From contig SCRA01000061.1 in assembly GCA_004297985.1 (NCBI GenBank), positions 1 to 34,506 of the forward strand: 34,506 bases of DNA, in the 5' to 3' direction. The translations under genes were made by a program, and so were the position numbers. The DNA is from a bacterium (GTDB lineage Bacteria; Vulcanimicrobiota; Vulcanimicrobiia; Vulcanimicrobiales; SCRA01). This document shows, in pieces, positions 18,130 to 20,647 of the stretch (its first letter is position 1; each line of letters starts with the position of its first letter). Under the pieces are notes generated by a model. The model was not told where the DNA came from and searched no databases. It saw only the letters and a list, made by a program, of their open reading frames with translations.

Positions 18130-18228
18130 CGAAGGGATGTTCCGCACCTCGGCGGTTCCGCCTTCGCGCAGAGTTCACCCGAGAGGGTGAAGGATTTCTC
18201 GCGAAGTACCGATATACTGGTCAGAGCA

Positions 18229-18309
18229 ATGTACTGCACGATCATTACGACTACCACCACGACGATTACTCGCAGCCAGGGGCTGTGGGCTGGAGCGGCG
18301 TTGCGGTAA
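18229..18309 (+). CDS. thrL: Threonine attenuator leader peptide
   Basis: This 26-codon frame (ATG to TAA) has threonine at positions 4, 7-12 and 14 and isoleucine at 5, 6 and 13, so 11 of residues 4-14 are Thr or Ile. Its tail is Arg-Ser-Gln-Gly-Leu-Trp and then small residues. This is the layout of the E. coli thr leader, in which Thr and Ile codons sense the charged tRNAs. It is not meant as a functional protein but as a ribosome-stalling sensor. No good ribosome-binding site precedes it, in line with a very short 5' leader. It lies directly before the attenuator terminator and thrC. Confidence 0.85.
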   Translation: MYCTIITTTTTTITRSQGLWAGAALR

Positions 18310-18334
18310 CGGTCGGCACGATCAGCGGACCAAC

Positions 18335-18371
18335 GAGACGCCCCCGGCCTGCAGGCCGGGGGCGTCTCTTT
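18335..18371 (+). terminator. Attenuator terminator before thrC
   Basis: GAGACGCCCCCGGCCT (18335-18350) is followed after two bases by its perfect complement (18353-18368), giving about 15 GC-rich base pairs. The short pyrimidine run CTCTTTC at the end of the stem acts as the release tract. It lies 24 bases before the thrC start and 25 bases after the leader peptide stop, as expected of an attenuator. Confidence 0.88.
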
Positions 18372-18394
18372 CATATCACGAGGAGTAGGGCACG

Positions 18395-19714
18395 ATGGAC
18401 AAGACGTTGGCGCGCCTGCGGTGCGCCGAGCTCGACGGCGCGGCGCCGGCCGAACACGGCTGGCACGGCGTCGGCGGGCCGGAGCCGCTGCGGTGTGCCG
18501 AGGCCGGCTGCGGCGGAGAGGCGATCGAAGGCAACACCTGTCCGCGCTGTGGCGGGCTGCTCGAGTTCGCCGAGCCGCACGGCATCGGGCGCGATGCGCT
18601 CGTTCAGATCCTGCGAGATCGTAGCGTGGCAACCAGCGCGATCGATCGCAGCGGCGTCTGGCGCTTTCGCGAGCTGCTCCCGCACATCGACGAAGCGCGG
18701 ATCGTCTCGCTGGACGAGAACGAGATCCCGCTGCAGGAGGCTCCGCGCAGCGCCGCTTGGAGCGGCGTGGAGCGCGTGGCCGTCTACCACTGCGGGCGCA
18801 ACCCGAGCGGCTCGTTCAAGGATGCGGGGATGACGGTAGCCGTCTCTTTCGCGGCCGCGCGCGGCTCGCGTGTTGCCCTCTGTGCGAGCACGGGGAATAC
18901 GTCGGCGGCGATGGCCGCCTACGCCGCGCGCGCCGGGATGGGGGCCTTCGTGTTGGCTCCCGCGGGCGGTGTCTCGCAGGCGAAGGTGGCGCAGACGTTG
19001 GCGTACGGCGCGCACGTGCTGACCATCGAAGGCGACTTCGACGACGCGCTTCGCCTGGCGCGTGCGGTAGGCGCGGCCTCGCGCGAGGTGGCTCTAGTGA
19101 ACTCCGTGGATCCGTACCGCATCGAGGGGCAGAAGTGCGTCGCGTTCGCCATGCTCGAGCAGCGTCGTTGGCGCGCCCCCGATTGGGTGGTGCTTCCAGG
19201 CGGAAATTTGGGCAACGTGAGCGCGCTTGGTAAGGGCTTCCGCGAAGCGCTGGCGCTCGGGTTGTCGGACCGGCTCCCGCGGCTGTGCGTCGTGCAGGCT
19301 TCGGGCGCCGCGCCGTTCGCCCGGGCGTGGGAGAGCGGTGCGGAGCTGGAGCCCGTGAAGGCGCAGACCGTCGCCAGCGCCATCCGCATCGGCAATCCCG
19401 TCTCATGGCGCAAGGCGCGCCGCGAGCTTCGCGCCTGCGACGGTCTGGCGTTGGCCCTCTCTGACGAGGATATCCTCGAAGCGCGGCGCGCTATCGGCGG
19501 CGACGGCCTGGGCTGCGAGCCCGCATCCGCGGCCTCGTTGGCCGGCGTGCGCGAGCTGCGCCGGCGCGGCGTGATGCGCGCCGACGAAGACGTCGTCTGT
19601 ATCTTGACCGGCCACGTCTTGAAGGATTCGTCCGTGGTCGAACCCATCGCACCCGAGCCGGTAGCCAATTCGGTAGACGCCGTGCTCTCCGCCATGCTGA
19701 AGGAGAAGAAGTAG
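18395..19714 (+). CDS. thrC: Threonine synthase
   Basis: This PLP enzyme converts O-phosphohomoserine to threonine and phosphate. The 439-residue protein starts with a zinc-ribbon-like part (Cys34, Cys39, Cys49, Cys52) typical of the threonine synthases found outside enterobacteria. The PLP lysine is Lys142 in NPSGSFKDAGM, followed by CASTGNTSAAMAAYAARAG for phosphate binding, and VVLPGGNLGNVSALGKGF later. The ATG at 18395 has GAGGAG upstream. It stands behind a threonine attenuator and is followed after three bases by homoserine kinase, so the assignment within the fold-type II family (as opposed to threonine dehydratase) is secure. Confidence 0.94.
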   Translation: MDKTLARLRCAELDGAAPAEHGWHGVGGPEPLRCAEAGCGGEAIEGNTCPRCGGLLEFAEPHGIGRDALVQILRDRSVATSAIDRSGVWRFRELLPHIDEARIVSLDENEIPLQEAPRSAAWSGVERVAVYHCGRNPSGSFKDAGMTVAVSFAAARGSRVALCASTGNTSAAMAAYAARAGMGAFVLAPAGGVSQAKVAQTLAYGAHVLTIEGDFDDALRLARAVGAASREVALVNSVDPYRIEGQKCVAFAMLEQRRWRAPDWVVLPGGNLGNVSALGKGFREALALGLSDRLPRLCVVQASGAAPFARAWESGAELEPVKAQTVASAIRIGNPVSWRKARRELRACDGLALALSDEDILEARRAIGGDGLGCEPASAASLAGVRELRRRGVMRADEDVVCILTGHVLKDSSVVEPIAPEPVANSVDAVLSAMLKEKK

Positions 19715-19717
19715 CCG

Positions 19718-20647
19718 ATGCGCATCGATTTTGAGGTCCCCGCGACGAGCGCCAACCTCGGTTCCGGCTTCGACGCCGTCGGCATCGCTCTCGAGCTCCG
19801 CCTGCGCGCTAGCCTGCGCTGTGACGATGGCTCGTTCCGGACGCGTTTTCTTCCCGGTCCCCAGATGCCCACCCACGACGGCTTCGAACAGGAGATCGTG
19901 CGCGGCATGCGCGCCTTGCTAGGCGAGGACGCCGAGTTGCCGCGCGGCGAGCTCGCGGTGGAGAACCCACTTCCCCTGGGCAAGGGCCTGGGCTCGAGCG
20001 CCGCGGCGCTGGTGCTGGGCTTGCTGGTGGCAGACGCCGCCGACGGTCTGGAGACGCCCGCCGAGCGGCTCGTGGAGTTAGCCTGCGGCCTCGAGGGACA
20101 CCCTGACAACTCCACCCCCGCGCTGCTCGGGGGCATCGTGGTAGCGGCACAGCAGGGCGAGACGATGCCGAGCTACCTGCGCTTCGACCCGCCGTCCGGC
20201 GTCCGAGCGATCATCGCCGTGCCGCAGCTGGAGCTGGCGACGGCGCAGGCGCGCGCCGTGCTGCCGCAGGCGTATGCGAAGGAGGACAGCGTCTTCAACG
20301 TGCAGCGCGCCGCGCTCTTAGGAGCGGCGTTGGCCAGCGGCAACGTTCGTCATCTGCGCGTAGCGATGCAGGACCGGCTCCACCAGCCGTACCGCGCCGC
20401 GTTCGTACCAGGCCTCGACGAGGCGTTGCGCTTGGAGCATCAGGGCCTGCTGGGAATCGCTCTCTCAGGCGCGGGGCCAAGCGTCCTGGCCCTGGTCGAC
20501 GGCAACGCGATGGAGATCGCGGCTTCGATGAGGGCGTGCTTTGCGCGCCACCGCGTGGCCTGCGAGACGTGGGTCTTGGGCCTGGCCCGCGAGGGGGCGC
20601 TCGTCCATGATCGCATCAGGAACGAGCGCCGCGTTGTCGGGGCCTAG
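19718..20647 (+). CDS. thrB: Homoserine kinase
   Basis: This GHMP-family kinase phosphorylates homoserine to make the substrate of the threonine synthase encoded just upstream. The 309-residue protein has the N-terminal VPATSANLGSGFDAVG, the ATP-binding loop PLPLGKGLGSSAAA (84-97), EGHPDNSTPALLGG (126-139) and the C-terminal GIALSGAGPSVLAL. All fit homoserine kinase. It shares the thrC transcript, with three bases between the genes, and so the leader attenuator. Its stop is near a small dyad (CTAGCG/CGCTAG, 20652-20668) at the convergent junction with pncA. Confidence 0.94.
   Translation: MRIDFEVPATSANLGSGFDAVGIALELRLRASLRCDDGSFRTRFLPGPQMPTHDGFEQEIVRGMRALLGEDAELPRGELAVENPLPLGKGLGSSAAALVLGLLVADAADGLETPAERLVELACGLEGHPDNSTPALLGGIVVAAQQGETMPSYLRFDPPSGVRAIIAVPQLELATAQARAVLPQAYAKEDSVFNVQRAALLGAALASGNVRHLRVAMQDRLHQPYRAAFVPGLDEALRLEHQGLLGIALSGAGPSVLALVDGNAMEIAASMRACFARHRVACETWVLGLAREGALVHDRIRNERRVVGA

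Follow-up and report, generated by a model that had tools for sequence, protein, structure and literature searches.

A predicted threonine attenuator with a near-leaderless sensor peptide upstream of thrC-thrB in a member of the Vulcanimicrobiota

The 34,506-nucleotide stretch analysed here (the window, contig G000:C51 of a 3.19-Mb genome that is 96% complete) very probably carries a ribosome-mediated transcription attenuator of the genes thrC and thrB, with charged threonyl-tRNA, and possibly isoleucyl-tRNA as well, as the signal. The sensor would be the peptide MYCTIITTTTTTITRSQGLWAGAALR, encoded on the forward strand at 18229-18309. When we read this ORF directly from the window sequence, we counted the 26 codons, eight of them for threonine and three for isoleucine, that a sequence-only reading of the same DNA had reported, ending in a TAA stop codon at 18307-18309. 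The leader is thus a short, conserved ORF rich in codons for the amino acid whose synthesis lies downstream. That it stands directly before thrC (threonine synthase, 18395-19714, forward strand) and thrB (homoserine kinase, 19718-20647, forward strand) had also been proposed, and both products score above the cut-offs of their NCBIfam equivalog models (TIGR00260, 258 bits against 167, and TIGR00191, 218 bits against 168). Since the neighbour of the leader, a glcD-like gene, is divergent and the gene past thrB lies on the opposite strand, we take the operon to be thrC-thrB. It does not have thrA directly after the leader, as a thrLABC-type operon would, and comprises thrC-thrB only. Aspartokinase/homoserine dehydrogenase had been placed outside the operon, and indeed we located the homoserine dehydrogenase gene (hom) on another contig, G000:C22, where no Thr leader precedes it.

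An intrinsic terminator (18335-18371, forward strand) separates the leader ORF from thrC, the first threonine biosynthetic gene of the operon. Its arms, GAGACGCCCCCGGCC (18335-18349) and GGCCGGGGGCGTCTC (18354-18368), enclose a TGCA loop and are followed by TTTC, so that the U tract of the transcript is short (UUUC). The sequence-only reading had called this a perfect arm pair of 16 bp; the hairpin is perfect, and its length is 15 bp. The predicted folding energy of the region is -37.3 kcal/mol, and the hairpin is conserved in two relatives of the same genus, L020 and L021.

The alternative pairing that had been suggested upstream of the terminator was also found in silico. In the minimum-energy structure, the Thr codons at 18256-18264 (segment 1) can pair with CGUUGCGG at about 18299-18307. 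If the Thr codons are hidden before the 3′ arm of the terminator has been made, the minimum-energy fold becomes an antiterminator in which 18288-18315 (segment 2) pairs with 18328-18349 (segment 3), all on the forward strand, and because segment 3 overlaps the 5′ arm of the terminator, the two structures would exclude each other. The antiterminator duplex has a predicted energy of -33.7 kcal/mol (z = -2.0), against -37.3 kcal/mol for the terminator region, and its advantage over composition shuffles is modest (p = 0.047). The corresponding duplex of L021 was not better than shuffles (p = 0.33), nor were those of several other relatives; the pairing result for L059 rests on a wrongly chosen hairpin. 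The signal is strong in relatives whose leader precedes hom, where the codons for LGEG (CTCGGCGAGGGC) are complementary to the 5′ arm of the terminator and most z-scores of the duplex lie between -4 and -5. In leaders of the thrC type, GGTGTAGGGTTGACGTAGG pairs with CTTACGAAGCCCCGCACC, again overlapping the 5′ arm. Two-sided changes occur in the terminator stems of both leader types of the sister family. Covariation in the antiterminator is thin, and it is slight within the genus because only three sequences were compared.

A lack of conservation of the leader codons in relatives had been named as grounds for refuting this reading, and in both same-genus genomes with an intact upstream region (a third contig of the genus ends inside thrC) the codons are conserved. 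L020 and L021, whose ThrC proteins are 93% and 87% identical to that of the window, retain the peptide, the -10 hexamer, the alternative pairing and the terminator. Within the peptide ORF, L020 differs from the window by synonymous changes. In L021 the peptide is MYAMIITTTTTITRGFGLWAGAALQ: one whole Thr codon has been lost, and synonymous changes affect codons for Ile, Thr, Gly and Ala as well as the stop codon. The -10 hexamer and the hairpin are retained, and so is the 10-nt distance between the hexamer and the ATG. We infer that the order to which this genus belongs lies in the Eremiobacterota/Vulcanimicrobiota, a phylum that has received little study, and includes Vulcanimicrobium alpinum WC8-2, and that the family of the window is sister to the Baltobacteraceae. 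Across this order we found Thr leaders in 25 genomes from eight genera and two families, which gives comparative support to the proposal of a classic threonine attenuator outside the enterobacteria. They precede thrC in six genera, that of the window included, and hom in two. The sister family accounts for five of the thrC genera (for example MISMFVSTTTTTTTTTTVVRCRVDVG and MMLFASSVTTTTTTTTTTTTGGRFGVGLT) and for both hom genera, one of them that of V. alpinum (MFAHGVITTTMTTTLGEGGSGSTSA). The three leaders from g5 are weaker: Thr codons are interspersed with Ser there. Among the loci inspected, Thr leaders stand solely before thrC or hom.

The start of the sensor ORF has an unusual architecture. 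A -10 hexamer, TATACT (18213-18218, forward strand), is separated from the leader ATG at 18229 by exactly 10 nt, GGTCAGAGCA, the spacing that had been predicted. A TAnnnT motif ends 6-10 nt upstream of the ATG in 42 of the 42 leaders compared, against 1.9% expected by chance, and 39 of these leaders were picked by peptide composition alone. As they are related, the 42 are not independent, yet they span two families and several peptide types. Most thrC-type and Met-type leaders of the sister family have TTGACN 17-18 bp upstream of TAnnnT, and most hom-type leaders have TTGCGC as the -35 element. The -10 hexamer is thus near enough to place the start codon at or close to the 5′ end of the message, and no Shine-Dalgarno sequence precedes it; the 5′ untranslated region of these leaders is presumed to be 0-5 nt long. 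Given the consistency of the spacing in all 42 leaders, a near-leaderless start of the Thr sensor peptide, also part of the sequence-only reading, appears well supported. Leaderless initiation was not seen as a genome-wide habit: among 505 genes of the window's genome, taken from crude gene calls, TAnnnT occurs 4-10 times per position at 6-10 nt before the start against a background of 5.8, and a clear Shine-Dalgarno peak is present. It therefore seems that leaderless starts are peculiar to sensor ORFs.

No -35 element can be recognised for TATACT in the window's genus. In its place the window has, between the leader and the glcD-like gene, a palindrome, TTCACCC-GAGA-GGGTGAA (18174-18191, no strand assigned), whose centre lies at about -42 relative to the presumed start; the promoter may therefore depend on another factor. 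One could suppose from this that a DNA-binding regulator acting at the palindrome is the main control of thrC-thrB, the leader being minor. Activator-dependent promoters often lack a -35 element, and the palindrome, of which the genome has no second exact copy, is kept in both same-genus relatives, in one with a single change. However, it was not seen at the leaders of the sister family, its function may lie with the divergent glcD-like gene instead of the thr promoter, and it leaves the Thr codons, the terminator and the antiterminator unexplained, so we regard such a regulator as an improbable main control. The missing -35 element could also mean that the attenuator is real but that a promoter further upstream yields a longer 5′ untranslated region, from which the peptide is translated in the conventional way, starting, for example, at the in-frame GTG at 18187; in each of the three genus sequences the frame indeed stays open upstream until a GTG is reached. 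As a protein, this extension shows little conservation, in contrast to TATACT and its 10-nt spacing, which are fixed, and the leaders of the sister family show clear TTGACN-17/18-TAnnnT promoters 6-10 nt before the ATG. A conventional start is therefore unlikely, if somewhat less so than control through the palindrome.

The least credible explanation, to which we give next to no weight, is coincidence: a short ORF of no significance that happens to adjoin an ordinary terminator. GC-rich DNA can by chance yield frames with many Thr codons, and scattered runs were found in relatives; among the loci examined that have Thr runs elsewhere, none outside the thr leaders formed a short ORF with a near-leaderless promoter. 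When the whole 3.19-Mb genome was scanned, seven consecutive Thr/Ile/Met codons occurred only in the leader and at one unrelated site, while the reversed control pattern gave two matches, and the RNA from 18223 to 18376 folds at -75 kcal/mol (z = -5.4), which none of 200 shuffles equalled. Since such runs are rare in the genome and the fold is far better than that of the shuffles, chance explains the leader poorly, and coincidence is further contradicted by the codon-level conservation, by the repeated presence of such leaders upstream of thrC or hom across eight genera, and by the fixed promoter spacing.

Under the preferred reading, an attenuator with a near-leaderless sensor peptide, transcription would start about 3-5 nt upstream of the leader ATG, and because of this the first ribosome would load at or near the 5′ end of the message without a Shine-Dalgarno sequence. 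With ample threonine, the ribosome would reach the stop codon and cover segment 2, so that the terminator hairpin (18335-18368) could form and transcription would end near 18370. Under threonine shortage, it would stall on the Thr run and block the pairing of segment 1; segment 2 would then pair with the 5′ arm of the terminator, and RNA polymerase would proceed into thrC-thrB. In an untranslated leader, the pairing of segment 1 would free the terminator. Judged from the sequence, the efficiency of termination would in this way respond to threonine.

Leaders for other amino acids were seen in the same order. In the sister family we found fifteen leaders with many Met and Cys codons. Of these, fourteen precede hom (for example MFTAVAMMCPMCCMQMHAAWAVVERTV), and the remaining one precedes metY-metX in V. 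alpinum. Those upstream of hom (L078, L081, L136-L138, L140-L147 and L149; for example MSRPTATMCPMCCMPMMHAPRAVVRSET) have TTGACN-17/18-TAnnnT promoters 7-9 nt before the ATG, and a terminator follows the ORF in six of the six hom loci inspected; five of these leaders were scanned against Rfam and gave no match. The Met/Cys-rich ORFs before hom or metY are apparently methionine (cysteine) attenuators of the same design. At one V. alpinum locus (L174, G004:C1 2670001-2690000, reverse strand, 11768 and 9207), metY-metX with the leader MNRRSLAMMMCCCSPRGTV, which carries MMMCCC and stands on metY, is followed by a Thr leader before hom, so that two amino-acid sensors occupy a single branch-point locus. 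In the window's own genome, for which our inventory of other leaders covers about 1.78 Mb of the 3.19 Mb, L206 (G000:C28) carries two divergent near-leaderless leaders, each with a terminator: MSSQILVVSLILVRLEWGRWG before ilvB (17697, forward strand) and MHLQLLSRLPLMDDVLRRSG before leuA (17585, reverse strand). L210 (G000:C32; 5686, forward strand) contains a near-leaderless short ORF, MNLGDRVRRPSPKLAHLVLGFVGMF, with a promoter and a terminator; it has no obvious amino-acid run and precedes an apparent acetyltransferase gene.

The design had been likened to that of the E. coli thr leader, and the two would work alike: the thr attenuator of E. coli (thrL; Rfam RF00506) shares with the window a Thr/Ile-rich peptide, a terminator, an antiterminator and downstream threonine genes. 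The window differs in lacking thrA in the operon, in its near-leaderless start and in belonging to a different phylum, and the likeness is probably convergent. The Rfam Thr_leader model gave 34.5 bits (E = 1.4e-4 in one genome), below its gathering cut-off of 55, and no known riboswitch or T-box reached the Rfam cut-offs. Among the weak Thr_leader matches in relatives, only L005, L009 and L013 are Thr leaders; most of the matches have no Thr-rich ORF, and those inspected are ordinary terminators.

Leaderless sensor peptides have been described elsewhere. In the ilvBNC leader of Corynebacterium glutamicum, the start codon lies one nucleotide from the transcription start, and regulation is translation-dependent and involves three competing hairpins (PMC11857589). 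That leader and the one in the window are both near-leaderless or leaderless peptide ORFs; the former belongs to branched-chain amino acids and to the Actinobacteria, and the ilvB leader of the window's genome is its nearer functional parallel. Mycobacteria have leaderless short ORFs with polycysteine runs, that is, runs of codons for the regulated amino acid (PMC4633059; Canestrari 2020, as cited in PMC9031893), for which no conserved terminator hairpin was found (PMC1262725). These ORFs concern cysteine, in contrast to threonine in the window, and they belong to bacteria in which leaderless genes abound, a trait that was not detected in the window's genome. A 2005 survey detected neither threonine nor methionine elements in the Actinobacteria (PMC1262725), and according to a 2010 survey, leader-peptide attenuators were known only in Proteobacteria and Actinobacteria before the Firmicutes case that it presents (PMC2965389). 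In the open-access literature, to which our search was confined, we found nothing relevant on attenuators of Eremiobacterota or on methionine-codon attenuation. As leaderless sensor peptides are already on record for Corynebacterium and mycobacteria, this kind of attenuator is known; what is new here is the taxon and the start architecture.

More tentatively, and with a little less than an even chance of being right, the order may have a whole attenuator family in which leaderless starts are largely reserved for sensor peptides (Thr, Met/Cys, Ile/Leu/Val and Leu) and ordinary genes use Shine-Dalgarno sequences; this family would include a Met/Cys attenuator before hom and metY, and its Thr sensor would have moved between thrC and hom. 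The findings would extend leader-peptide attenuation to a phylum in which V. alpinum is the one cultured member considered here. A sensor peptide at the 5′ end needs no ribosome-binding site, and ribosomes could thereby be loaded in step with the polymerase from the earliest nucleotides of the message; the selection of leaderless starts for sensing becomes testable. The shift of target, with thrC in some genera and hom in others, would illustrate how switches of this kind move from one gene of a pathway to another.
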